Below are positions 19,374 to 44,890 of a stretch of DNA of 48,455 nucleotides, in pieces. The translations under genes and the position numbers were made by a program. The notes under the pieces were generated by a model that was not told where the DNA came from, ran no database searches, and was given only the letters and a program-made list of their open reading frames with translations. The DNA comes from an uncultured Verrucomicrobiales bacterium (GTDB taxonomy: Bacteria; Verrucomicrobiota; Verrucomicrobiia; Verrucomicrobiales; Akkermansiaceae): positions 1-48,455 of the forward strand of contig CAJXVQ010000001.1 in the NCBI GenBank assembly GCA_913060685.1, given 5' to 3'. The number at the start of each line of letters is the position of its first letter. Within the stretch, counting starts at the first letter, position 1.

Positions 19374-22300
19374 ATGTTTAAAAACGACCCCGACCAAAAC
19401 AATGACCCGGGAGCTGATGGCCTGAACGAAAAGGAGCTCTTCTTCTTGGCCCTGGAAATCGAAGACCCTGCCAAGCGAGCCATCTGGCTGAAGGAAGCTT
19501 GTGGCGGGGACGAGGGTCTCTACCAGCGTTTGGAAGGGCTTTTGGCTGCCGAAGCCACCGCAGGAATGGACTTCCTGAAGCCCGATGAAGATCGCCTCGG
19601 TGAAGTGGTCGCTGAGATTGGGCACGAACTCCGCACTGAAGTGGCCAATCCGGAGGCCGACACCCTTGGCGATGATCAGGATCAGGCGGCCACGGACCTG
19701 CCCGGAGTGGACTTCAACGAGAAACCCGGCGATACTATCGGGCGCTACAAGCTCCTGCAGAAAATCGGCGAAGGCGGCGGCGGCGTGGTCTACATGGCGG
19801 ATCAGACCCAACCGGTGAAGCGCCGGGTGGCCTTGAAGGTCATCAAGCTCGGGATGGACACCCGCCAGGTCGTGGCACGCTTCGAGGCCGAACGACAGGC
19901 CCTCGCCATGATGGAACATCCCAATATCGCGAGCATCCTTGATGCGGGAGCGACCGAGGGCGGACGGCCCTACTTCGTGATGGAACTGGTGCGCGGGGTC
20001 CCCATTACGACCTTCTGTGACGAACACAAGCTCGGCACCAGGGAGCGCCTCGAGCTCTTCCTGCAAGTCTGCGCGGCGGTGCAGCATGCCCATCAAAAAG
20101 GCATCATCCACCGCGACCTTAAGCCGGGCAACGTCCTCGTCACGATGATGGAAGACCGGCCCTTGCCAAAAGTGATCGACTTTGGAATCGCCAAAGCCAC
20201 CCACCAGGATCTGACCGAGAAGACCCTCTTCACGCAGCACGGAAACTTCGTTGGCACACCCACCTACATGAGTCCGGAACAGGCTTCGATGACCGGCTTC
20301 GACATCGACACCCGCAGCGACATCTACAGTCTCGGGGTCCTGCTCTATGAACTGCTGGCGGGCGCACCGCCCTTCGATCACAAGTCGCTCCTCTCCGCCG
20401 GCTACAATGAGATGCGGCGCATCATCGCGGAGGATGAACCGCCCAAGCCGAGCACCCGCTGCACCGAGACCCGGATCCAGTCAAAAACCGCGACCGGATC
20501 GAAGCCGATGAAATTCCACCTCAACCCCTCCTCCCTGAAGGGTGAGCTGGACTGGGTTGTGATGAAGGCCATCGAGAAAGACCGCACCCGGCGCTATGAA
20601 ACCCCGAATGCCTTTGCGGCGGATGTCGAGCGCTACCTAAAGGACGAACCGGTCCAGGCCGCCGCACCGAGTTCCGCCTACAAGTTCAGGAAGTTCGCGC
20701 TGCGCAACAAGACCGCCATCGGGGTGGTGGCAGGATTCGTTCTTATGTTGGTGATTGCAGTTGGCGTTAGCAGTTGGCAGGCGGTCCGGGCCATTCACGC
20801 GGGAAAGGAGTCGGAGAAAGCTCGGCGAGAGGCCGAGAGGGCGCGCGAAAGGACCGAGGATGTGTTGACCTATCTGACTGCGGTGCTCAAGAGTCCTGAT
20901 CCGGATTTTGATGGACGAAAAGTGACGGTGGCCGCGTGCCTTGCTGCTGCTGCCGATGAGTTGGAGATCCGCTTCCCGGATCAGCCGGAGCGCCAGGCGT
21001 TACTGCGGTCCGTGGTCGGGTCGACCTACTATTCCCTGGGGCTTTACCCCGAGGCCATCGAGCTTCAAGACGCTGCTTTGAAACATTTTCTGGAATCGCC
21101 TGATTCGGACCGGGTTGAAACGTTCGATGTGATGCACGAGCTGGCCGACTCCTATTATGCGGTTGGTCGTTGGAGTGAATCCTTGAAGCTGCGGGAGAAG
21201 GTCTTCGCCTTCCGTGGCAAGGTCCTTGGGGAAGCCCATCCCGACACGCTGAAGAGCATGTCCGAGCTGGCCGATTCTTATGCCGACATTGGACGAGAAC
21301 CGGAAGCTCTCAGGATGCGTGAGAAAGAACTGCTCCTGAGTCGGCAAACACTGGGTGAAGAGGACCCCCACACCCTTGGGGTCATGAGCCAACTCGCATT
21401 CTCCTACTCTTCCTTGGGTCGAAAGGCGGATTCGCTCGAGTTGCATTCGAAGGTCTTCGAACTGTCTAAGAAGACGTTTGGGGCCGAGCATGCAAGGACC
21501 ATGTCGGCGATGGGCAATCTGGCTTATTCCTATCACGCTGCGGGCCGGAGCGCAGAAGCACTGGAGTTCCGCGAGAAGGTGCTGGCGCATCATCGGGAAA
21601 AGTTCGGAGAGGAGCATCCCAGTACCCTCTTTGCGATGCATAGCCTGGGTTATTCCTACTATGGCGTCGGTCGCCGGAAGGAGGCCCTGGACCTGCGGGA
21701 AGAGGTGCTCCGACTACGTCGGGAGAAGCTTGGTCCCGTGCACGTTCGAACCCTGCGGGCGATGCGCAACTTGTCCCAAAGCTACAACGACATGGGCCGC
21801 CAGAAGGAGGCGCTCAAACTGGCTCACGAGACTCTGGACAAGTTTCGCGTAGCCCTCGGTGAGTCCGAGAAGGACACCCTTTTCGCGACAAGGAACCTGG
21901 TGGAAATCCTCCGAGACTCCGGGCAGCTGGACAAGGCGATTGAGCTCAGCGAGCAAGGCATCGAGTTGCACCGACGGAAGTATGAAGGAGAACATCCGGT
22001 CACTCTCCGGGCAATCGGCCAATTGGCGCTGCTCTACAGCGAAGCCGGTCGCCATGGGGATGCACTTGAAAAGGGAGAAGCAGTTGTGAAAGGCCTCCGT
22101 CGGAGTCTGGGCGATGCACGGCCCGCCACGCTGGAGGGTAGGGCAAGGCTGGCGACGATCCGTCGCAATGCCGGTCAGATCCCCGCCGCGATCGAGGAAG
22201 GAGTGGAGGTCTTGGCTCGGTGCCATTCGATGCTTGGCGCGGAGGCCCCCCGCACCCTCGAGGTGATGCGCAACCTGGCCCTTTCCTACAGCGCGGAGGA

Positions 22301-22622
22301 GCTCCATGAAGAGGCTCTTGAGCTTGGGAGTGAGGTCTTGGAATTGTTTGGTAAGGTCCTTGGGGAGGAACATCCAGATACCCTGGTGGCGATGGAAAAT
22401 CTGGCGGCGATGACTCAGAGCTCAGGGCTCCAAGAGGAGGCTGTGTCGATTCTGATAGAACTCCTGCCGGTAGCGCGCCGCCTACTCGAGCCCTCCCATC
22501 CTCTGCTGCCGGTCCTCATCGAGGATTTAGCCGATGGTTATGAAAAGACCGGGAACGATAAGGCTGCTCAGGAGCTGCGGAGTGAGCTCAAAGAATTGAA
22601 CGGGAAGCCTGCCGATGAATAG
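19374..22622 (+). CDS. Transmembrane Ser/Thr protein kinase with TPR (kinesin-light-chain-type) domain
   Basis: This 1082-residue kinase has an N-terminal helical region (1-115), a Hanks-type kinase domain (about 123-420), one membrane helix (about 449-468), a short coiled coil, and about 12 TPR_10/12 repeats (about 540-1065) of roughly 42 residues with the signature G-E-E-H-P-D-T-L. Catalytic features are complete: glycine loop G-E-G-G-G-G-V-V, VALK with Lys155, H246-R-D248-L-K-P-G-N, D269-F-G, and SPEQ in place of APE. The kinase domain faces the cytoplasm and the TPR domain would be outside, a plausible sensor. It follows sigma 1, whose region 2.2 carries a Thr, so the sigma is the natural candidate substrate. 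The N-terminus shares little with the other two kinases, and the gene is the most divergent of the three. Confidence 0.95.
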   Translation: MFKNDPDQNNDPGADGLNEKELFFLALEIEDPAKRAIWLKEACGGDEGLYQRLEGLLAAEATAGMDFLKPDEDRLGEVVAEIGHELRTEVANPEADTLGDDQDQAATDLPGVDFNEKPGDTIGRYKLLQKIGEGGGGVVYMADQTQPVKRRVALKVIKLGMDTRQVVARFEAERQALAMMEHPNIASILDAGATEGGRPYFVMELVRGVPITTFCDEHKLGTRERLELFLQVCAAVQHAHQKGIIHRDLKPGNVLVTMMEDRPLPKVIDFGIAKATHQDLTEKTLFTQHGNFVGTPTYMSPEQASMTGFDIDTRSDIYSLGVLLYELLAGAPPFDHKSLLSAGYNEMRRIIAEDEPPKPSTRCTETRIQSKTATGSKPMKFHLNPSSLKGELDWVVMKAIEKDRTRRYETPNAFAADVERYLKDEPVQAAAPSSAYKFRKFALRNKTAIGVVAGFVLMLVIAVGVSSWQAVRAIHAGKESEKARREAERARERTEDVLTYLTAVLKSPDPDFDGRKVTVAACLAAAADELEIRFPDQPERQALLRSVVGSTYYSLGLYPEAIELQDAALKHFLESPDSDRVETFDVMHELADSYYAVGRWSESLKLREKVFAFRGKVLGEAHPDTLKSMSELADSYADIGREPEALRMREKELLLSRQTLGEEDPHTLGVMSQLAFSYSSLGRKADSLELHSKVFELSKKTFGAEHARTMSAMGNLAYSYHAAGRSAEALEFREKVLAHHREKFGEEHPSTLFAMHSLGYSYYGVGRRKEALDLREEVLRLRREKLGPVHVRTLRAMRNLSQSYNDMGRQKEALKLAHETLDKFRVALGESEKDTLFATRNLVEILRDSGQLDKAIELSEQGIELHRRKYEGEHPVTLRAIGQLALLYSEAGRHGDALEKGEAVVKGLRRSLGDARPATLEGRARLATIRRNAGQIPAAIEEGVEVLARCHSMLGAEAPRTLEVMRNLALSYSAEELHEEALELGSEVLELFGKVLGEEHPDTLVAMENLAAMTQSSGLQEEAVSILIELLPVARRLLEPSHPLLPVLIEDLADGYEKTGNDKAAQELRSELKELNGKPADE

Positions 22623-29944: not shown

Positions 29945-32599
29945 ATGACCACTCCCGCCCAAGACCTCTTCGCCCAGGCCCACGACCTGGATCCCGACGC
30001 TCGTGAGGCCTTCCTTGCCAAAGCCTGTGGCGACGACGCCGAACTCCACCTCGAGGTCCAGCGCCTCCTCGTCGATGCCGAGAAGGCCCAATCCTTCTTT
30101 GCGGACACCGAAGGTGCCACCATCGGCGCCGAGGAATTCGACGAGACCTACACCGAGGCCGAGGGCGACGTCGTCGGCCCCTACACCCTGCGCCAACAAA
30201 TTGGCGAGGGCGGCTTCGGCACCGTCTGGATGGCCGAGCAAAGCGAACCCATCTCGCGCATGGTCGCCCTCAAGGTCATCAAGGCCGGGATGGACACCAA
30301 GCAGGTCCTCGCCCGCTTCGAGGCCGAGCGCCAGGCCGTCGCGATGATGGATCACCCCAATATCGCCAAAGTCCTCGACGCCGGTGCCACTTCCACCGGC
30401 CGACCCTACTTCGCGATGGAGCTCGTCAAGGGCATCCCCATCACCCAGTTCTGCGATCAGCAGAAGTTTGGCCCCAAACGCCGCCTCGAGCTCTTCCGCG
30501 ACGTCTGCGCCGCCGTCCAACACGCCCACCAGAAGGGCATCATCCACCGCGACCTCAAGCCCTCCAACATCATGGTCACCCTCGCCGCCGATGTCCCGGT
30601 GGTGAAGGTCATCGACTTCGGCATCGCCAAGGCCACCCAAAACAAGCTCACCGAAAAGACCCTCTTCACCCGCTTCGAGCAGTTCCTCGGCACCCCGGTC
30701 TACATGAGCCCCGAGCAGGCCGCGATGAGTGCGATCGACATCGACACCCGCTCGGACATCTACAGCCTCGGCGTCCTTCTTTACGAACTCCTCGCCGGTG
30801 CCCCGCCCTTCGATCAAAAGTCGCTCCTCTCCGCCGGTTACGACGAAATGCGCCGCATCATCGTGGAAGACGAACCGCCCAAGCCCAGTACCCGCTGCAC
30901 CGAGACCCAAGCCAATACCACGACCGGAACCGGATCAAAGCCCAGGAAATCTCATCTCAGCCCCAGCGCCCTGAAGGGCGAACTGGACTGGATCGTGATG
31001 AAGGCCATCGAGAAGGACCGCACCCGTCGCTACGAGACCGCCAACGCCTTCGCCTCCGACATCGGGCGCTACCTTTCCGACGAACCGGTGCAAGCCGCCG
31101 CGCCAAGTTCCACCTACAAGTTCAAGAAATTCGCCCGGCGCAACAAGGCCGCCTTTTCGGTGGCCGCCGCGATGCTCGTCTTGCTCCTCGCAGGCATCGC
31201 CACCACCAGCTGGCAGGCGGTGCGGGCCACGCAAGAGGCCGAACGGGCGACCCAGGCCGAGAAAAAAGCCACCGAAGAGAGCGAGGCCAAGACCGCAGCG
31301 CTCGAGGACGCCAAAGCGACCTCGAAGTTCCTGACCGACATGTTCAAGAGCTCCCGGCCCGGCGAGGAGAAGGGCGGGCGCAAGGTCAAGGTCGCAGAAG
31401 TCCTCGATCGGGCCGCGAAGCAACTGGATGACGACACCCAAATGCTCCCGAGAACGCGCGCAGTGCTGCAGGGGGCACTTGGAAAAACCTACAATGCCCT
31501 CGGGCTCTATCCACAGGCCATCCCGCTGCTGGAACAGGTATGGAAGTACTCCCTCGCAGCCCTCAGCCCGGAGCACCCCGACACGCTCGAGGCGATGGGC
31601 AACCTGGCGATTTCCTACCAGCGTGCCGGCCACCGGGTCGAGTCGATCAAAATTTTAGAGAAGGTGTTGCTGCTCCAGCGCAAAGTGCTCGACCCGGAGC
31701 ACCCCGACACGCTCAGATCGATGAACAGTCTGGCGCATTGCTACCACGCCGCCGGCCGCTGGGACGAGGCGCTCAAGATGCAAGAAGAGTTGCTGCCGCT
31801 GTGCCTGCAGGTGAGCGGCCCGAAGCACCCCGACACGCTCGTAGCAATGGCCTCCCTGGTGGAATCCTACTACTATGTAGACCGCCGGGACAAGATGCGC
31901 AAAGTGCTCGAGGAGCTGCTGCCGTTATCCAACGAGGTGTTCAAACCGGAGCACCCCTTCACGCTCCAGGCGAAGCGCGGCCTGGCGATTTTACACTCCG
32001 ATGCCGGCCGACTGGACGAGGCGATCAAGCTGGGCGAGGAGGTGCTGGCACTTTCCCTCAAGGCGGTTGGCCCGAAGCATTTCATCACGCTCCAGGTAAT
32101 GGGCTCCCTGGCGGATTTCTACTCCGATGATGGTCGCCGTGACGAGGCGATTAAGCTGGGCGAGGAAGTGCTGGCGCTTTCCCGCGAGGTGAATGGCCCC
32201 AAGCACCACAACACGCTCTCGATGATGAGCACTCTCTCAATCATTTACAACGATGCCGGGCGAAGCGCAGACGCGATCAAGCTCGGAAAATCGGGTCTCG
32301 ATTTGCATTTGAAAGTCATTGGGGAGAAGCACCCCGACACCCTCAATGCCATGACCAACCTCGCCATCTGTTATCAAGTGGCCGACCGCCTCAAGGAGGC
32401 CATTGCCCTGGAGGAAAAGGCGCTCGGGCTGAAACGTCGGATCCTTCGGTCCGGGCATCGGAAAACGATCGAATCGATGGACAACCTCGCCACCTACTAC
32501 GAGAAGGCGGACCGCAAGGAGGAAGCAAAGCCCCTCCGCGACGAGATCGCCAAGCTCAAAGCGGACGCCGCCAAAGCAACACCCCCGCCCACAGAATGA
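29945..32599 (+). CDS. Transmembrane Ser/Thr protein kinase with TPR domain
   Basis: The 884-residue protein has a conserved N-terminal segment (1-75; A-R-D-L-F-A-like opening shared with the kinase at 42146), a kinase domain (about 79-380; G-E-G-G-F-G-T-V, Lys110, H201-R-D203, D224-F-G, SPEQ), a membrane helix (about 403-424), a charged coiled coil (428-458), and about nine TPR_10/12 repeats (about 500-860) with K-H-P-D-T-L signatures. The cytoplasmic kinase and outer TPR layout suggests a sensor. It is in an operon with the FHA-cyclase and sigma 2. A 425-bp stretch of its kinase domain is identical to the kinase at 42146, although flanks differ, which points to recent exchange between the two. 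Confidence 0.96.
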   Translation: MTTPAQDLFAQAHDLDPDAREAFLAKACGDDAELHLEVQRLLVDAEKAQSFFADTEGATIGAEEFDETYTEAEGDVVGPYTLRQQIGEGGFGTVWMAEQSEPISRMVALKVIKAGMDTKQVLARFEAERQAVAMMDHPNIAKVLDAGATSTGRPYFAMELVKGIPITQFCDQQKFGPKRRLELFRDVCAAVQHAHQKGIIHRDLKPSNIMVTLAADVPVVKVIDFGIAKATQNKLTEKTLFTRFEQFLGTPVYMSPEQAAMSAIDIDTRSDIYSLGVLLYELLAGAPPFDQKSLLSAGYDEMRRIIVEDEPPKPSTRCTETQANTTTGTGSKPRKSHLSPSALKGELDWIVMKAIEKDRTRRYETANAFASDIGRYLSDEPVQAAAPSSTYKFKKFARRNKAAFSVAAAMLVLLLAGIATTSWQAVRATQEAERATQAEKKATEESEAKTAALEDAKATSKFLTDMFKSSRPGEEKGGRKVKVAEVLDRAAKQLDDDTQMLPRTRAVLQGALGKTYNALGLYPQAIPLLEQVWKYSLAALSPEHPDTLEAMGNLAISYQRAGHRVESIKILEKVLLLQRKVLDPEHPDTLRSMNSLAHCYHAAGRWDEALKMQEELLPLCLQVSGPKHPDTLVAMASLVESYYYVDRRDKMRKVLEELLPLSNEVFKPEHPFTLQAKRGLAILHSDAGRLDEAIKLGEEVLALSLKAVGPKHFITLQVMGSLADFYSDDGRRDEAIKLGEEVLALSREVNGPKHHNTLSMMSTLSIIYNDAGRSADAIKLGKSGLDLHLKVIGEKHPDTLNAMTNLAICYQVADRLKEAIALEEKALGLKRRILRSGHRKTIESMDNLATYYEKADRKEEAKPLRDEIAKLKADAAKATPPPTE
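30269..30693 (+). repeat. 425-bp block identical to 42473-42897
   Basis: Reading the two kinase genes side by side, every base from 30269 to 30693 matches 42473 to 42897 (constant offset 12204). Synonymous and other differences begin at once on both sides (for example C at 30694 versus T at 42898). This is the pattern left by gene conversion or a very recent local exchange. Confidence 0.88.
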
Positions 32600-32830: not shown

Positions 32831-34012
32831 ATGAATCAGCTCCGTGTCACAGGCAGCGCCGAAACCACGACTGTGGCAGGAGAAGGAGTGGCTGCATTCG
32901 TGCCGCTTCCCTTGCCGCCGGTGGCTCCCTCGCTGGAGCTCAACGAAGCGATGCGGGAACAGATCCGCGCCGCCGAGGAAGGCCTCCGTCGATTGGAACT
33001 GGCTGGGGAGATGGTGCCTTCGCTTGACTGGTTCATCTACGGCTTCGTGCGCAAGGAGGCCGTCCTCTCCTCCCAGATCGAGGGCACGCAGGCGACTCTG
33101 GTGGATCTCCTGAACTTCGAGGCCAGGGGGAGCCACGAAGCGCCGGAGAACGCCGACATCCGGGAAGTCTGCAACTCCCTGGAAGCACTCGACCATGCCC
33201 GCGACCAGCTCCGCCGCCCGGACGGGTTGCCCCTTTCGATGCGCCTCCTGAACGAAGCTCACGCCCGCCTGATGCAGGGAGCGAGAGGAGCCGACAAACT
33301 TCCCGGCGAGATCCGTCGAAGCCAGAACTGGATCGGTGGCACCCGCCCGGGCAATGCCACCTTCGTGCCGGCCCCGCCTCACCGACTCGACGGCCTCTTG
33401 TCGGATTTTGAAAAATACCTGCATGCGGACGACGACGAACTCCCCCCGCTGGTGAGGGCAGGGCTCCTGCACGTTCAGTTCGAGACCATCCACCCCTACC
33501 TCGATGGCAACGGCCGGATCGGGCGGCTTCTGGTCATGCTCTTACTCGAGGACTGGGGGCTTCTCGCGGCCCCGCTGCTCTACCTGAGCCTGTTCTTCAA
33601 GCGGCACCGCGGCGAATACTACCGGCGGCTCGCCGCTGTTAGGACGGATGGCGACTGGGAGGGCTGGACGTCCTTCTTCCTCGAAGCCGTCGCGACGATC
33701 GCCGGGGAGGCGGTCTCGACGGCCCGCGATCTCTTCGCCCTGGTCAGTCGCGACCGGGCGCGCGTCCTGACCACTCCCGGCAGTACCGTGATCGCCGCCC
33801 GCTTGTTCGAGATGCTGCCGCAGCATCCGGTCATCACGATCGGGTCGGCGGTGACGCTGCTGGAGACCACCCGGCCGACCGCCACCAAGGCAGTGACGGC
33901 CTTGGTCCATGCCGGTGTGCTGGCGGAGACCTCCGGCAAGAAGCGCGACCGCTCGTTCGGCTATGCGGCCTATCTTGATCTGCTGAAAGTGGGGACGGGG
34001 CTCGAGCGGTAA
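32831..34012 (+). CDS. Fic-family AMPylator with own inhibitory motif
   Basis: This 393-residue protein has a Fic-N region (about 1-105), the Fic core (about 110-245) with the active-site loop H221-P-Y-L-D-G-N-G-R-I-G-R232, and a C-terminal winged-helix-like part (about 300-390). The core transfers AMP (or another nucleotide) from ATP to a hydroxyl on a target protein. The alpha-inh motif S80-S-Q-I-E84-G85 is present in the N-terminal part, so this is a class II Fic whose activity is self-inhibited until the glutamate is moved. It follows kinase 2 after 231 bp on the same strand. Three palindromes directly upstream suggest repression. The target is unknown, but the signalling genes next to it are candidates. 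Confidence 0.95.
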   Translation: MNQLRVTGSAETTTVAGEGVAAFVPLPLPPVAPSLELNEAMREQIRAAEEGLRRLELAGEMVPSLDWFIYGFVRKEAVLSSQIEGTQATLVDLLNFEARGSHEAPENADIREVCNSLEALDHARDQLRRPDGLPLSMRLLNEAHARLMQGARGADKLPGEIRRSQNWIGGTRPGNATFVPAPPHRLDGLLSDFEKYLHADDDELPPLVRAGLLHVQFETIHPYLDGNGRIGRLLVMLLLEDWGLLAAPLLYLSLFFKRHRGEYYRRLAAVRTDGDWEGWTSFFLEAVATIAGEAVSTARDLFALVSRDRARVLTTPGSTVIAARLFEMLPQHPVITIGSAVTLLETTRPTATKAVTALVHAGVLAETSGKKRDRSFGYAAYLDLLKVGTGLER

Positions 34013-34985: not shown

Positions 34986-35450
34986 GATACGAATTGGGGG
35001 TTGTTTTGGTTTCTTTTGCCGGGCGCTTTTGCCCGTCATCCCCCCATGCGTATTCCGGCTAAAAAAACGGACAGTTAAGTTTCATTATTTTCGCAAAACA
35101 AAAATTACGCCTGCACACCGCGTCGAAACCCGGGGCGATATTGGGCGGAAAGATGAAGCCAAGAAAGCGCCCCGTGCTTGGGACATCTTCTCCATCAAGG
35201 TCGGGAAATCCCACAAAACATCGACTGAGAAGATATTATGAACTTCATGATCGATTATGAGGATCAATGCCCTCCGGCATAGTGTCCTGTCGTCAATCAA
35301 AACAGAAACCATGAATCCATTCACCAAACCCGCCCACTTCCTCACCATCTCCCTCACGGCCACCACCGCCCACGACAGTCTTGGTGCCTTCCTCCCTGTA
35401 GACGGTGACACCGCCAGCCCTCTGGCGCTTACTCTCCACACAATATAGTG
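34986..35450. other. Intergenic region with a short doubtful frame
   Basis: This holds the promoter side of the minus-strand PEP-CTERM gene (motif TTTTTGTTTTGCGAAAA on the minus strand near 35087-35105). A 45-codon plus-strand frame at 35311-35448 (M-N-P-F-T-K-P-A-H-F-L to T-L-H-T-I) has a weak signal-like hydrophobic stretch and ends two bases before the MFS ATG. It could be a leader peptide or the stump of a lost secreted protein; I do not call it a gene. Confidence 0.4.
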
Positions 35451-36707
35451 ATGAACAGCAATTTAACCAAGCGAGGCTTCCTCTCCCTGACCGTCGCACA
35501 ATTTTTTGGGGCGGCGAACGACAACCTTCTGAAGGTCGTACTCAGTTTTGCCGTGGGAACAGGCCTCTGGTATACCTTGCTAGGAGAGGGAGGAGTGGCT
35601 TACATCGGGCTTTGTTTTACGATGCCGTTCATTTTTCTTTCGGGTTACGCAGGACAATTGGCGGATCGAATCAGTAAACAAAAGATCTCCTACTGGGTGA
35701 AAGTCGCAGAGATCGGGATCACTTTGGTGGCGATGCTGGGATTCTGGCAGGGTAATTTATGGATCACCATGGGAGCGATGATTCTCCTGGCGATTCAAAG
35801 TGCTTTTTTTGGACCGGCCAAGTATGGCATGATTCCCGAGTTGGTGGACAAGGGAGATCTCAGCCGCGCCAATGGCGTGATCAATATGTCGACGAACATC
35901 GCCGTGATCGCGGGAACCGTGTTGGCGGGGCATGTGTCTGATGCCTATCAAGGGATCGACACGGATATGCCGCTTTCCTGGCTGCCGGGAGTGGCATTGG
36001 TAGGTGTCGCCATTCTGGGTTGGGTCGCGATTTCATTCATGCCTCGAATGGAGGCGATGGATCCTGATCTGAAGTTCGACTGGAATCCATTCGGGGTTTA
36101 CCTGACGGCCTTGAAAGAAATGAGCCGTAGTCCTTTGCTGACCGTGGCCTGTGCGTGGTCGACCTTCTACATGATCGGGATGCTGGCACTGACGATCTTG
36201 TTGGCGTATCCGAAACTGTTCGTGCTAAGTGACAGCGAAGGAGCTATGCTGCTCGGAGTGCTGGGAGTGTCAATTGGCATGGGGAGTGTGCTGGCGGGGC
36301 TGATTTCCGGACACACCATTAAACCGAAACTGATTCCGGTCGGGGCGATTGGAATGACGATCTTCTTCGCGGCCTTGGGACTGGCTCCCATGAATTACGG
36401 AATCGTGGCAACTTTCATTGCCGGTGTCGGCGTGTTTGCGGGTTTCTACATCGTTCCCTTGCAGGCACTTCTCCAGCATCTCTCACCCGATGACGAACGG
36501 GGCCGGTTTCTGGGAACCGCAAACGCGATGTCCTTTGTCGCGAGTTCGATAGGGCTCTTGATTTATATATTTACAGTCCGGGTGCTTGGGATGGAACCCA
36601 ATCGGGTGTTCTTAATTTGTGCAGGGTTGGCGTTTTTCGGGACGGGTGCCTTGATCTGGCGGATGCGTAAACTGATGGCGAAGGAAGCGAATAAAGAGGC
36701 TGCCTGA
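35451..36707 (+). CDS. MFS transporter, LplT-like
   Basis: This is a 418-residue (419 from the GTG at 35448) twelve-helix major facilitator protein. The opening F-F-G-A-A-N-D-N-L-L-K and the loop I-Q-S-A-F-F-G-P-A-K-Y-G resemble the lysophospholipid flippase LplT, which returns lysophospholipids to the inner leaflet for reacylation. The loop between helices 2 and 3 carries A-D-R-I-S-K-Q, the MFS motif-A region. The second MFS protein at 40618-41943 belongs to the same subgroup. Right after its stop lies a copy of the first codons of a sigma gene (36713-36750), and its own last 77 codons are repeated at 39679-39913, so this gene took part in a duplication. The substrate is inferred from the family only. 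Confidence 0.9.
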   Translation: MNSNLTKRGFLSLTVAQFFGAANDNLLKVVLSFAVGTGLWYTLLGEGGVAYIGLCFTMPFIFLSGYAGQLADRISKQKISYWVKVAEIGITLVAMLGFWQGNLWITMGAMILLAIQSAFFGPAKYGMIPELVDKGDLSRANGVINMSTNIAVIAGTVLAGHVSDAYQGIDTDMPLSWLPGVALVGVAILGWVAISFMPRMEAMDPDLKFDWNPFGVYLTALKEMSRSPLLTVACAWSTFYMIGMLALTILLAYPKLFVLSDSEGAMLLGVLGVSIGMGSVLAGLISGHTIKPKLIPVGAIGMTIFFAALGLAPMNYGIVATFIAGVGVFAGFYIVPLQALLQHLSPDDERGRFLGTANAMSFVASSIGLLIYIFTVRVLGMEPNRVFLICAGLAFFGTGALIWRMRKLMAKEANKEAA

Positions 36708-36712
36708 ACCCC

Positions 36713-36750
36713 TGAATGAACGAACGATGGCTGATGTGATCCGTTGGATA
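36713..36750 (+). pseudogene. Truncated start of a TIGR02999 sigma gene
   Basis: The sequence TGAATGAACGAACGATGG and the next codons (M-A-D-V-I-R-W) match the leader and first codons of sigma 3 at 39968-40005 (M-A-D-V-T-R-W) almost base for base. Homology stops after about eight codons. In both places it follows the end of the LplT-like MFS gene. This is therefore the stump of a deleted sigma gene. Confidence 0.75.
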
Positions 36751-36802
36751 CTCTTGCCGGTTTGGTCTGATTCGAAACCCGCCGGCGTTCCGCTACAAAG
36801 AC

Positions 36803-36837
36803 AAAAAAGCGAGCGCTCAATGAAGAGCGACCGCTTT
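36803..36837 (-). terminator. Rho-independent terminator for the thioredoxin-like gene
   Basis: On the minus strand AGCGGTCGCTC (36835-36825) pairs with GAGCGCTCGCT (36818-36808), with a two-base internal mismatch and a six-base loop, and is followed by TTTTTT (36808-36803). It lies about 30 bases past the stop at 36868. Its presence shows that the upstream gene is transcribed to its full downstream stop, beyond the internal TGA. Confidence 0.85.
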
Positions 36838-36867
36838 GAAATTAGCCAATAACGAATTCCTAATTCC

Positions 36868-37593
36868 CTATTCGTCCTCAGTCTCTTCATCAGAGTCCGG
36901 GGATGCTTCCTTGATCAACTTCTGATCCGCTTCGGAAAGCTTGGCGATGGGATAGGGAATCTTTTTCCCATTCTTGAGCTTGAACATGACGTTCTCGCCC
37001 TCGATCGCGGTCACAGCCGCTACCAGGGGCTTGCCCTCGCTGTTGGTCCAGGTGCGCTGAGCGATGAGCGGCTTGGCAAAGAGACCACCGTCATCATCCT
37101 CATCCACAACTTCGACATCCTTGAGGGCCTTCTTGATCGCCTTGTCAAAATCAGGACTCATGGGATGCCCTTCAAAGACGAGCTCACCGCTCGCATCAAA
37201 CACAACGGAATGGGGAATGCCCTTCATATTGGGCGCACGAGTGGAGCCCTTCATGATGGGGTAATTGATCTTGTGCTCCTTCACGAGCTTTTCAATCGCC
37301 TCCACCGAACTGCTCTGAACCTCGGGAGCGAGAATGCGGAGTCCCTTTTTGCTATACTTTTTGTCCATCTTGACCAGATGGGGCATGGCGCCAATACAGG
37401 GGCCTCACTTGGTTCCCCAGTATTCGAAAACCACAACCTGACCCTTGAGGTCTTTCATGGTTACCTCTTCGCCCACTTGAACGGTGCCAATTTCCCAATC
37501 AGAGAGCTTGGCATCGGCAGCCTGGAGGGGCAGGCCCACCGAGGAAACAGCAAGAATTGCTCCGGCTGCAAAATGTTGTAATTTAATTCTCAT
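36868..37593 (-). CDS. Secreted TlpA-like thioredoxin, candidate selenoprotein (UGPC)
   Basis: One 241-codon gene contains a single in-frame TGA at codon 63 (37407-37405). A signal peptide (about 1-26) leads into a thioredoxin-like domain (about 30-160) with V-V-V-F-E-Y-W-G-T-K-[TGA]-G-P-C66-I-G-A-M-P and a cis-proline loop K-G-I-P127-H-S-V-V-F. The TGA falls exactly where TlpA and thioredoxins have the attacking cysteine of CxxC, so the protein would carry U-G-P-C. An SHD1-like domain follows (about 176-227, R-T-W-T-N-S-E-G-K-P then I-A-K-L-S), then an acidic tail. A hairpin with a GGUCA loop lies 29 bases past the TGA. The downstream half is intact and in frame, and a terminator follows the final stop. 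A simple Cys-to-stop mutation or sequencing error is the alternative. It should act as a periplasmic thiol-disulfide or peroxide-reducing enzyme. Confidence 0.78.
37365..37381 (-). promoter_or_regulatory. Candidate bacterial SECIS hairpin
   Basis: In the mRNA, CCAUCU (37381-37376), loop GGUCA (37375-37371) and AGAUGG (37370-37365) form a perfect 6-bp stem with a 5-base loop. It lies inside the coding region, 23 bases after the UGA to the stem and 29 to the loop. Bacterial SECIS elements characteristically have a G at the start of the apical loop and lie about 16-37 bases past the UGA; the fdhF element of E. coli has a GGUCU loop. All these conditions are met. Confidence 0.6.
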
Positions 37594-37798
37594 AGATTTT
37601 TAATCTCTTCCTATACGAAATTATCCACCTTAATTTATCTATTTTTTATCATTTATTTTTTCGTTCCATTCTAATGAAACCGGCGTCCCGATGATATCCG
37701 GAAGGGTAAAGCTGGGCATCCAGGGCGATCAAGGGAAATAAGAGAACGACAAGGTTTGTGGCGTCGGCTGTTGGCGATTAGCCCGGTCGACCGCACCG

Positions 37799-37895
37799 CG
37801 AGAAAGCTAAGTGCCAACCGCTAAAAGCGAATCGCCATGGTGCGTAGGGCCCTTCGCTCCGCCCCGATCCCTTGATCGCCCTGCCGGGCATCCTG
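37799..37895. repeat. About 97-bp intergenic repeat, copy 2
   Basis: This matches copy 1 at 28251-28350, with shared CGAGAAAGCTAAG, GCCAACCGCT, AATCGCCATGGTGC and CTGCCGGGC. Here an upstream arm TGGCGATTAGC (about 37772-37782) is nearly complementary to GCGAATCGCCA inside the repeat, so a longer hairpin is possible. It lies about 90 bp before the CDGSH-GltS start. Confidence 0.75.
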
Positions 37896-37984
37896 CAAGT
37901 TCCTCCTCTGCAAACTCTCCAGAAAGAGGCACTCTTTCCAAAATCCTGCAAGCCGTCCTCTCAAAACTCATTCGATCATCCGCT

Positions 37985-39532
37985 ATGAAAAAACCCACCG
38001 TCTCCGATCTGTCACCCATCCCGGTAGAGCTCAAAAAAGATGAGACTTACTACTATTGCACCTGCGGAAAGTCTGCCAACCAACCCTTCTGCGACGGCTC
38101 GCACAAGGGCACCGATTTTGTCCCCCAATCATTCCAGGCGACAGAAGACGGCACCGCCTACCTCTGCCGATGCAAACAAACGGGAGGTTCCCCCTTCTGC
38201 GATGGCAGCCACAAACAAGTCCCTGACGAACAAAGAGGAAAAGAATTCGCCCTCGAGAAGTCGGGGGACGCCGACGCCATGCCCGAAGCCACCTCGACCC
38301 CGGAAGAGCCCACCGTCGCTTTCATCCACCAACTCGCCCGGGACGGCCTCTCGAAACTGGGCCACCACGGACCGATGGGCGCCATGGGCGTCCCAAGGAA
38401 AGATCTCCCCGACTGGAACGACATCCAAATCATGGTGGCGCAACTCCACCGCAAACCCCTCTTCGAAGATGTCGCGGTGGGCACCAAAGTCATCATCGGA
38501 CCCGAAGCCAAAAAGCCCCTCGAACTCGAAATCCCCCTCTTCGTCTCCGACATGTCCTTCGGCGCACTTTCCGAAGAAGCCAAAACCGCGATGGCCAAAG
38601 GAGCCGAATTGGCCGGCACCGGAATTTGCTCGGGCGAAGGCGGCATGCTCCCCGACGAACAAGAAGCCAACAGCCGCTACTTCTACGAACTCGCCTCCGC
38701 GAAATTCGGCTACCGGGAAGAGCTTCTCGCGCGCGTCCAGGCCTTCCATTTTAAATGCGGCCAGGGTGCCAAAACCGGCACCGGCGGCCACCTCCCCGGC
38801 AACAAAAATACCGGACGCATCTCGGAAGTACGGGGGATCCCCGAAGGACAACCGGCGGTCTCCCCACCCACCTTCTCTGACCTCAACACGGTAGAAGACT
38901 TCAAAAACTTCGGCGACCGCGTACGCGAAATCAGCGGAGGCATCCCGATCGGCTACAAGCTCAGCGCCCAGCACGTTGAAAAGGACATCGACTTCGCCCT
39001 CGCGGGTGGAGCCGACTACATCATCCTCGACGGTCGTGGCGGTGGCACCGGAGCCGCCCCCCTTTTATTCCGTGATCATATTTCCGTCCCCACCATTCCC
39101 GCCCTCGCCCGCGCCCGGCACCATCTCAACAAGGTGGGCGCCAGCGGACGAGTCAGCCTCATCATCACAGGGGGACTGCGCACTCACAACGACTTCGTCA
39201 AAGCCCTCGCCCTTGGTGCGGATGCCATTGCCCTTGCCAACTCGGCGATGCAAGCCATCGGCTGTGTCGGAGCCCGCATCTGCAACACCAACCTGTGTCC
39301 TGCCGGCATTGCGACCCAGAAACCGGAACTCCGCAAACGTCTCAAAGTGGACCACGCCGCCAAGCGTCTTCAAAACTACCTCGAGGCCACGACCGAGCTG
39401 ATGCAGGTCATGGCCCGCGCCTGCGGCCACAATCACCTCAACCAATTTAATAAGAACGACCTCGCCACCTGGAAAAAAGAAATGGCGGAAATTTCAGGCA
39501 TCGAATTCTCCGGACTGGATCTGGAACGATAA
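37985..39532 (+). CDS. CDGSH iron-sulfur / glutamate synthase-type FMN protein
   Basis: This 515-residue protein carries two N-terminal CDGSH motifs (C25-x-C27...C36-D-G-S-H40 and C61-x-C63...C72-D-G-S-H76), each expected to hold a 2Fe-2S cluster, fused to a glutamate synthase-type FMN domain (about 110-500). The latter shows the FMN-barrel segments DMSFGALS, CGQGAKTG and D-G-R-G-G-G-T-G-A-A-P, and the 3Fe-4S cysteine cluster C-V-G-A-R-I-C-N-T-N-L-C. GltS-like proteins without the glutaminase domain act as stand-alone FMN enzymes; their true reaction is often unknown. I chose the ATG at 37985; the longer frame runs into the intergenic repeat. The CDGSH fusion suggests an electron-transfer role, perhaps receiving electrons from an unknown donor. 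There is no partner gene next to it. Confidence 0.93.
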   Translation: MKKPTVSDLSPIPVELKKDETYYYCTCGKSANQPFCDGSHKGTDFVPQSFQATEDGTAYLCRCKQTGGSPFCDGSHKQVPDEQRGKEFALEKSGDADAMPEATSTPEEPTVAFIHQLARDGLSKLGHHGPMGAMGVPRKDLPDWNDIQIMVAQLHRKPLFEDVAVGTKVIIGPEAKKPLELEIPLFVSDMSFGALSEEAKTAMAKGAELAGTGICSGEGGMLPDEQEANSRYFYELASAKFGYREELLARVQAFHFKCGQGAKTGTGGHLPGNKNTGRISEVRGIPEGQPAVSPPTFSDLNTVEDFKNFGDRVREISGGIPIGYKLSAQHVEKDIDFALAGGADYIILDGRGGGTGAAPLLFRDHISVPTIPALARARHHLNKVGASGRVSLIITGGLRTHNDFVKALALGADAIALANSAMQAIGCVGARICNTNLCPAGIATQKPELRKRLKVDHAAKRLQNYLEATTELMQVMARACGHNHLNQFNKNDLATWKKEMAEISGIEFSGLDLER

Positions 39533-42145: not shown

Positions 42146-44890
42146 ATGAAACCGCCATCTGCCCGAGATCTCTTCGCCCGCGCTCTTGATTTAAATCCGG
42201 ACGATCGAGATTCTTTTCTGGCCGCAGAGTGTGGGAAAAACGCCGAGCTCCGCCTTGAGGTCCAACGCCTTCTGGTCGATTCCGAGAAGGCTCAGTCCTT
42301 CTTTTCCGACGAAGACGGGGCCACCATCGGAATGGAAGAATTTGACGACACCTTCACCGAAGCAGAGGGCGACGTCGTCGGCCCCTACACCCTGCGCCAA
42401 CAGATCGGCGAGGGCGGCTTCGGCACTGTTTGGATGGCCGAGCAAAGCGTGCCCATCTCTCGCATGGTGGCGCTCAAGGTCATCAAGGCCGGGATGGACA
42501 CCAAGCAGGTCCTCGCCCGCTTCGAGGCCGAGCGCCAGGCCGTCGCGATGATGGATCACCCCAATATCGCCAAAGTCCTCGACGCCGGTGCCACTTCCAC
42601 CGGCCGACCCTACTTCGCGATGGAGCTCGTCAAGGGCATCCCCATCACCCAGTTCTGCGATCAGCAGAAGTTTGGCCCCAAACGCCGCCTCGAGCTCTTC
42701 CGCGACGTCTGCGCCGCCGTCCAACACGCCCACCAGAAGGGCATCATCCACCGCGACCTCAAGCCCTCCAACATCATGGTCACCCTCGCCGCCGATGTCC
42801 CGGTGGTGAAGGTCATCGACTTCGGCATCGCCAAGGCCACCCAAAACAAGCTCACCGAAAAGACCCTCTTCACCCGCTTCGAGCAGTTCCTCGGCACTCC
42901 GGTCTACATGAGCCCCGAGCAGGCTGCGATGAGCGCGATCGACATCGACACCCGCTCAGACATCTACAGCCTCGGCGTGTTACTTTACGAACTGCTGGCA
43001 GGTGCGCCGCCCTTCGATCAGAAGTCACTCCTCTCTGCCGGTTACGATGAGATGCGCCGCATCATCGCAGAGGACGAGCCTCCCAAACCCAGCACCCGCT
43101 GCACCGAGACCCGGATCCAGGCAAGCACCGCGACGGGCACCGGATCGAAGCCGAAGAAATTTCATATCAGCGCCAGCGCCCTAAAGGGCGAACTGGACTG
43201 GATCGTGATGAAGGCCATCGAGAAGGACCGCACCCGGCGCTACGAGACTGCCAACGCCTTCGTGGCCGACATCGAGCGCTACCTCGATGACGAGCCGGTG
43301 GAGGCCGCCGCGCCAAGTACCACCTATAAGTTGAAGAAGTTCGCGCGGCGAAATCGGACTGCAGTTGCTTTTGCCACCACGATCACCGTTCTCTTGATTG
43401 CGGGGATCTTCGGAACCACGTGGTTTGCGCTGTCCTCTCAGGAGGCCCGAATCGATGAGAAACAGGCCAAGGAATACGCACTTAAGAGCGGGGAAGAAAC
43501 CAAAAAGGCCCTCGAGCGAACTAAAGTCGCATTAAATCAATCCCGCTACGAAGAAGCCAAAACCTGGTTGGAAAGAGCGCGACTGGCAATAATGCAGAAG
43601 AACAAATTCGCGGCCGCCATGATGGCCGCGAAAGGCTTGGGATTTCGAGGATTTGGTGCGGAGCGGCAGACCGAGGAGTTCCGGAAAGCCAATCCGGTGC
43701 TCCTGGAGAAAGAGAAGCCGGAATTCGAGGAGCTCATGCAAATCGCGATGGACGGCAACGTTCCGTGCCGTCCAATTTGGCGATCTCCTCTTGGCTCGCA
43801 TAAAGAAAGGGTCTCCACAGTGACCTTCAGCCCGGATGGCGCCACCCTCGCCAGCGGAAGTTGGGATGAGACGATCAAGCTCTGGGACCTCTCGAGCGGA
43901 AAGGAGATCCGAACCTTCGGGCACCAAGACACGGTCATGAGTGTGGCCTTCAGCCCGGATGGCAGCACCCTCGCCAGCGGGAGTGGGGACGGGACGATCA
44001 AGCTCTGGGACCTCTCGAGCGGAAAGGAGATCCACACCTTCGGGCACCAAGACCTGGTCTTGAGTGTGGCCTTCAGCCCGGATGGCAGCACCCTCGCCAG
44101 CGGGAGTGCCGACAAGACGATCAAGCTCTGGGACCTCTCGAGCGGAAAGGAGATCCACACCTTCGGGCATCAAGACAGGGTCATGAGTGTGGCCTTCAGC
44201 CCGGATGGCAGCACCCTCGCCAGCCGGAGTGACGACAAGACGATCAGGCTCTGGGACCTCTCGAGCGGAAAGGGGATCCGCACCTTAAGGCACCAAGACT
44301 TGGTCAGTAGTGTGGCCTTCAGCCCGGATGGCACCACCCTCGTCAGCCGGAGTTACGACAAGACGATTAAGCTTTGGATTGTGGACAACTCACCGCCCGA
44401 TCTGGCAGGCTACCTCGATCCCCGAAATCCCTGGTACCGACTTGAGGGATCAGGGATTTCCTTGAATTCCCAAACCGGCGATCGACTTGTGGATAGGGAA
44501 CCGCAGTTCCTGAATGTTTCTCCCGTCAGCCATGTGGGCATCCTCCACAGCACCCGCTCGCCGGAAAAAAAGAACCGCGCTCTCTTTTGGAATTATCTGC
44601 ACGCCGGGAACTGGAACAGCGCCGGGGTTCTGTATGCGCGCTTGACCGACCCAGCCTCAAAAGAATCAGCCCGGGAGATGACCGTTCTGAGACGCGCGGC
44701 CAAGGCGCAATCCGCCTTCGACGGCGGACTCTACCGTCATGCCAGGTGGCACCTGGAAGAGATCACTCCGCTGTTGAAGCCCGATGAAACCGATCCAGCG
44801 ATGTTGAGAGCGAAGGAGCTGATCGAGCGATTGAAAGACGACTTGGATCAACGCGAGGCCTCCGACGGTCGGAAGGATTCGCCAAAGTAA
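42146..44890 (+). CDS. Transmembrane Ser/Thr protein kinase with WD40 repeats
   Basis: This 914-residue protein shares its N-terminal segment and kinase domain (about 80-381; G-E-G-G-F-G-T-V, Lys111, H-R-D204, D225-F-G, SPEQ) with the kinase at 29945. A membrane helix (about 404-428) and a coiled coil follow. The outer part holds five WD40 repeats of exactly 41 residues (about 550-745; each with F-S-P-D-G-x-T-L and I-K-L-W-D-L-S-S-G-K), then a helical C-terminus (about 790-914). The repeats are nearly identical in DNA, so they multiplied recently. A WD40 propeller usually has seven blades; five may be incomplete or pair with another molecule. A sigma remnant lies directly before its leader. 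The kinase probably senses an external ligand and acts on a sigma factor such as sigma 3. Confidence 0.96.
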   Translation: MKPPSARDLFARALDLNPDDRDSFLAAECGKNAELRLEVQRLLVDSEKAQSFFSDEDGATIGMEEFDDTFTEAEGDVVGPYTLRQQIGEGGFGTVWMAEQSVPISRMVALKVIKAGMDTKQVLARFEAERQAVAMMDHPNIAKVLDAGATSTGRPYFAMELVKGIPITQFCDQQKFGPKRRLELFRDVCAAVQHAHQKGIIHRDLKPSNIMVTLAADVPVVKVIDFGIAKATQNKLTEKTLFTRFEQFLGTPVYMSPEQAAMSAIDIDTRSDIYSLGVLLYELLAGAPPFDQKSLLSAGYDEMRRIIAEDEPPKPSTRCTETRIQASTATGTGSKPKKFHISASALKGELDWIVMKAIEKDRTRRYETANAFVADIERYLDDEPVEAAAPSTTYKLKKFARRNRTAVAFATTITVLLIAGIFGTTWFALSSQEARIDEKQAKEYALKSGEETKKALERTKVALNQSRYEEAKTWLERARLAIMQKNKFAAAMMAAKGLGFRGFGAERQTEEFRKANPVLLEKEKPEFEELMQIAMDGNVPCRPIWRSPLGSHKERVSTVTFSPDGATLASGSWDETIKLWDLSSGKEIRTFGHQDTVMSVAFSPDGSTLASGSGDGTIKLWDLSSGKEIHTFGHQDLVLSVAFSPDGSTLASGSADKTIKLWDLSSGKEIHTFGHQDRVMSVAFSPDGSTLASRSDDKTIRLWDLSSGKGIRTLRHQDLVSSVAFSPDGTTLVSRSYDKTIKLWIVDNSPPDLAGYLDPRNPWYRLEGSGISLNSQTGDRLVDREPQFLNVSPVSHVGILHSTRSPEKKNRALFWNYLHAGNWNSAGVLYARLTDPASKESAREMTVLRRAAKAQSAFDGGLYRHARWHLEEITPLLKPDETDPAMLRAKELIERLKDDLDQREASDGRKDSPK
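42473..42897 (+). repeat. 425-bp block identical to 30269-30693
   Basis: This is the partner of the identical block in the kinase gene at 29945. It covers from the Val-Ala-Leu-Lys region to just after the activation-segment threonines. Sequence outside it differs at many third-codon positions. Confidence 0.88.
43820..44377 (+). repeat. Five tandem 123-bp WD40-coding repeats
   Basis: Units start at 43820, 43943, 44066, 44189 and 44312. The core TTCAGCCCGGATGGC is unchanged in all five, and long stretches (AAGCTCTGGGACCTCTCGAG) are shared by neighbouring units. First and last units have diverged more, which fits expansion from the middle by unequal exchange or slippage. Copy number may vary between strains. 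Confidence 0.93.

Follow-up and report, generated by a model that had tools for sequence, protein, structure and literature searches.

The window analysed here, a stretch of 48,455 nucleotides from an uncultured Verrucomicrobiales bacterium, carries on its minus strand a gene of 241 codons (37593–36868) that starts with ATG at 37593, ends with TAG at 36870–36868 and contains one in-frame TGA as codon 63 (37407–37405). This TGA takes the place of the first Cys in the CxxC of a thioredoxin, so that the active-site motif becomes W-G-T-K-U-G-P-C (Sec63-Gly-Pro-Cys66) with selenocysteine as residue 63 in the attacking position of a UxxC pair. A preliminary description of the locus had given the gene, its single TGA and the motif, and the sequence agrees with it base for base; both halves are also intact in one frame as described there, with no other stop present and the Pfam AhpC-TSA/Redoxin match spanning the TGA. 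Without read-through only the fragments 37593–37408 and 36868–37386 (172 aa from its ATG) would be left.

The gene is flanked by an MFS transporter gene (35448–36707) and by a gene for a CDGSH/glutamate synthase-like protein (37811–39532). The latter lies on the plus strand beside the selenoprotein gene and is predicted to encode CDGSH iron-sulfur domains fused to a glutamate synthase-like domain. Elsewhere the window holds three large genes for protein kinases that carry TPR or WD40 repeats (19374–22622, 29945–32599 and 42146–44890 (+)) and a Fic protein (32831–34012). When the window was compared with the first 9 kb of the contig of the nearest relative, a match was seen at 36722–37618 only, and the two genomes thus place a 90% identical gene in different surroundings. 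Among the relatives no conserved gene neighbourhood was found outside one trio of close relatives. As the gene stands alone and its relatives have other neighbours, its context suggests no substrate. Of the terminator proposed to follow the gene, a weak terminator-like hairpin at 36829–36814 is what we found; it is not significant, as the region gave three hits where shuffled sequences lead one to expect 1.4.

The N-terminus of the protein reads as a probable signal peptide, MRIKLQHFAAGAILAVSSVGLPLQAADA (37593–37516, minus strand), with a hydropathy peak of 2.5, which is in line with the signal peptide noted earlier; its cleavage point, near LQA-ADA, is putative. It leads into a thioredoxin domain of the TlpA/ResA type (37521–37109, minus strand, residues about 25–161), and the predicted structure (mean pLDDT 79) consists of this domain and a small C-terminal beta domain, joined by an acidic linker at residues about 163–172 that is modelled with low confidence. 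In Pfam the thioredoxin domain matches AhpC-TSA (PF00578, 43.4 bits against a cut-off of 26) and Redoxin, and the PF00578 match together with UGPC places the protein in the Prx-like UxxC class. A Foldseek search of the PDB returned ResA first (E 5e-10), with a fold alignment over residues 21–161 of Z 16.4, 134 residues and rmsd 2.3, and a profile search gave the redoxin 28db first and ResA next. The ResA model of NCBIfam (NF002854) scored 57.4 bits against a cut-off of 170, and none of the NCBIfam models reached its cut-off for this protein. The cis-Pro loop that had been seen after the motif is GIPH, and its P127 is invariant in 16 sequences.

The C-terminal domain (37056–36901, minus strand, residues about 180–231) is most similar to SHD1. 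Its Pfam score for PF03983 stays below the cut-off (18.0 against 23.7 bits, E 0.0026, residues 180–230), and the same model matches 11 of 16 family members at E 0.01, the best of them with E 1.4e-5. Modelled alone from the single sequence (pLDDT 76), the domain found the SHD1 of Sla1 (2hbp) at rank 1 in Foldseek, with TM 0.60/0.67, probability 1.00 and rmsd 1.5 over 52 columns, at an E of only 2e-3; a sequence search of the PDB with the SHD1 part found no chain. The TlpA-like thioredoxin and the SHD1-like domain of the preliminary description are thus borne out by the fold searches, with Pfam agreeing below its cut-off for the latter. In yeast the SHD1 of Sla1 binds short peptide motifs, and by analogy the domain described here probably binds a partner or substrate, while to our knowledge the role of SHD1 in these bacteria has not been worked out.

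The nearest relative, 90% identical, comes from an uncultured Verrucomicrobiales bacterium with an assembly of its own (G019), and a search with the window protein alone recovered this relative and a Cys-type protein from Desulfobacteraceae. Within the genus (27 genomes searched) the TGA is present in all ten of the closest homologues, and the 145 genomes of the taxonomic family added five further genera with TGA at this codon (g8, g9, g11, g12 and g16), which is more than chance would give. Altogether the TGA occupies the same codon in 15 genomes from 6 genera, all of them separate assemblies. An error of one base in sequencing or assembly might be suspected, as the draft that contains the window is fragmented into 840 contigs, but the identical base recurs in independent assemblies of other species, making such an error a negligible prospect. 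Cys stands at the codon in paralogues inside the genus and in homologues from the genera g7, g9, g10, g12 and g13, so that the look at homologues for TGA or Cys yielded both, TGA conserved at the site and Cys elsewhere. The window genome itself has a Cys-type copy with the motif WGVGCSSC (L156, G000:C121, frame from 1010 +), of which the SHD1 part lies in a different frame, through decay or an assembly error. A TGA also occurs in a number of shorter members of the family (G137 and others), and in the one that was examined (L154) it lies off the active site; they were set aside. The family tree, in which the deep forks are weak, requires Sec and Cys to have been exchanged at least four times, in either direction.

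The same comparison speaks to the view that a Cys codon, TGC or TGT, mutated to TGA and that the rest of the gene is a remnant. A single base parts TGA from these codons, and two family members look damaged, namely the Sec copy of G017 with its extra TAG and the Cys copy of G000:C121 that runs over two frames. Against this, the TGA is common to all of the 15 genomes and 14 of the genes have no other in-frame stop, and the sequence behind the TGA is under constraint: against the nearest relative dN/dS is 0.20 for the part before the TGA and 0.27 for the part after it, other pairs give 0.08–0.23 for the latter part, and the SHD1 domain and the active-site Cys66 are intact throughout the family members compared. 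Purifying selection, as judged from these ratios, is acting on both sides of the TGA. A pseudogene is therefore refuted by conservation and, in our estimate, scarcely conceivable; close relatives, for which decay of both halves had been named as a possible outcome, show no decay, with dN/dS of about 0.08–0.27 after the TGA. The G017 copy (L011, G017:C123), in which the additional in-frame TAG lies 3' of the TGA, may be decaying, and the same genome carries a Cys paralogue that is intact (L030). The gene with its apparent stop is almost certainly an intact selenoprotein gene.

A candidate bSECIS element follows the TGA. Its core hairpin CCAUCU-GGUCA-AGAUGG (37381–37365, minus strand) has a 6-bp stem and a 5-nt loop with G in first place, is separated from the UGA by 29 nt, and the 50 nt starting at the UGA fold with an MFE of -16.0 kcal/mol. 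These values fit the bSECIS model set out in PMC13188914, which describes a loop of 3–9 nt with G in the first two positions, a stem of 4–16 bp, a distance of 16–37 nt from the UGA and an MFE of at most -7.5. All 15 Sec genes have CCAUCU-[GAC]GU[CUG]N-AGAUGG or a near-match 3' of the TGA. The six pairs are complete in 12 of them, the outermost pair alone being lost in the other three (G017, G051 and G049), and five core pairs and the loop GU are invariant. Compensatory changes were not found among the 14 distinct Sec-gene sequences, so that the support for the hairpin consists of this invariance and of silent sites. At the latter, all 15 Sec genes use CAT for the His codon, compared with 6 of the 10 Cys genes (p 0.017 by Fisher test, uncorrected for kinship); among the window genes CAT makes up 45% of the His codons. 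The third base that pairs with C31 is G in all Sec genes while the wobble bases of the loop vary. For the comparison with non-Sec homologues 18 sequences were taken, and two of them (L146 and L154), which the motif search had placed wrongly, were removed; none of the remaining 16 has all six pairs at the aligned place. As some of them retain five of the six pairs, the stem alone separates the groups imperfectly, and it is the loop GU that mostly does so.

The genome of the window encodes SelA and SelB (478 and 307 bits, respectively), two proteins of the selenocysteine machinery, both found over their family cut-offs on contigs of similar G+C. The preliminary description had pointed to selA, selB, selC and selD as the genes to be expected; the first two are thus in place, and neither of the others was found in this fragmented draft (840 contigs, 93.55% complete). 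For selC, ARAGORN, covariance-model and sequence searches of the window genome and of its nearest relative found no gene, with 105 or 150 of more than 1000 candidates in these two genomes scored in the covariance-model searches. Candidates for tRNA-Sec in the window genome proved to be tRNA-Ser or no tRNA, and a candidate for selD (L040) turned out on reading to be ThiL. Across the genus, selA lies over the cut-off in 25 of 27 genomes and selD in 23 of 27, and ARAGORN calls a tRNA-Sec(UCA) in 20 of 27. The SelD genes of the genus (L074–L083 and others) themselves contain a single TGA in one frame in 22 of 23 cases, and the remaining one is in two pieces, one of them with TGA. The window genome (G000) and its nearest relative (G019) have no tRNA-Sec despite selA and UGA genes, for which the plain reading is a gap in two drafts. 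That the tRNA-Sec of this lineage has instead been altered beyond the standard models and the genus sequence, while selA, selB and two or more UGA genes were kept, appears to us quite improbable. The second UGA gene of the window genome encodes a longer TlpA-like protein with the motif WGDWUGPC and without SHD1 (L155, G000:C339:5500–7577, frame from 1022 +), and TGA relatives of it occur across the genus.

With selC missing from the assembly of the window, one could also think of a UGA that is read as another residue, for example Trp under a changed code, or of non-specific read-through. The homologues have Cys and not Trp at the position, UGA, so far as observed, acts as a normal stop in this genome and interrupts only this one gene of the window, and selA, selB and a SECIS-type hairpin 3' of the UGA are present, all of which leaves such a reading with hardly any probability. 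As a whole we regard it as very likely that the locus is a selenoprotein gene whose UGA is read as Sec by means of SelB and the hairpin, and whose product is an exported UxxC reductase of the ResA/TlpA type with an SHD1 domain.

In the mechanism that we propose, the ribosome would not terminate at UGA codon 63, where SelB with Sec-tRNA(Sec) would insert selenocysteine, with the hairpin that follows 29 nt later in the mRNA as its guide. The genes selA and selB and the hairpin are seen in the sequence, and the insertion of Sec is what they together suggest. The protein would then be exported, as its signal-peptide-like N-terminus indicates, which also points to the periplasm as its location. There the selenol would be the attacking group of the U-x-x-C pair and Cys66 the resolving residue, the positions being seen in the protein and the reaction being that known from the family. 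By this analogy the protein is most likely a thiol-disulfide reductase of the periplasm. Of the periplasmic U-x-x-C oxidoreductase envisaged before, the UxxC motif and the ResA/TlpA-like fold stand, and for the periplasm the signal-peptide-like N-terminus is the one indication. A selenoprotein acting on peroxides, that is a peroxiredoxin or peroxidase, would agree with AhpC-TSA as the best Pfam match and with the glutathione peroxidases found lower down the fold list; we consider it rather unlikely, as the motif is UxxC with the resolving Cys three residues on, and as ResA/TlpA/DsbE are best by sequence, profile and fold.

Among the selenoproteins already described, Prx-like thiol:disulfide oxidoreductases (PF00578, UxxC/UxxU) are listed in PMC13188914 and PMC9312934, as is 'Prx-like 1' (pfam00578, UxxC) in PMC2398784. 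The protein of the window shares with them PF00578 as the best Pfam match and Sec in UxxC, whereas no SHD1 is named in the consulted parts of these three papers. Fusions of a UxxC redoxin to a further domain are also known among the thioredoxin-fold selenoproteins (Prx-like 3/Unknown_3), but the fused domains described in PMC2398784 have as a rule a conserved Cys, which is a CxxC in Unknown_3, and the SHD1 part described here has no Cys. With the secreted thioredoxins ResA, TlpA and DsbE (CcmG) it has the thioredoxin fold, the position of the CxxC and the cis-Pro in common, and it differs from them by Sec in place of the first Cys, by the added SHD1 and by its score below the ResA cut-off of NCBIfam. 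The SHD1 domain (PF03983) has the fold of its family, with 2hbp as first match, and in contrast to that of Sla1 it is bacterial, fused to a thioredoxin and presumably exported, with a sequence score below the Pfam cut-off. In the main texts of the literature searched we found no SHD1 selenoprotein, the only match to both terms being a paper on T cells. The fusion of TlpA, Sec and SHD1 had been put forward as undescribed, and this needs to be narrowed: UxxC redoxins of PF00578 with Sec already form an established class of predicted selenoproteins, and it may be only the fusion to SHD1 that is undescribed.

In summary, the gene ties selenium-based redox chemistry to SHD1, and it is a gene that standard annotation, which ends it at the UGA, would drop as a fragment. 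Furthermore, Sec and Cys alternate in this protein family inside one bacterial family, and as the Sec members retain the hairpin and the Cys members do not have it complete, the pair offers a tidy natural experiment on the gain and loss of selenocysteine.
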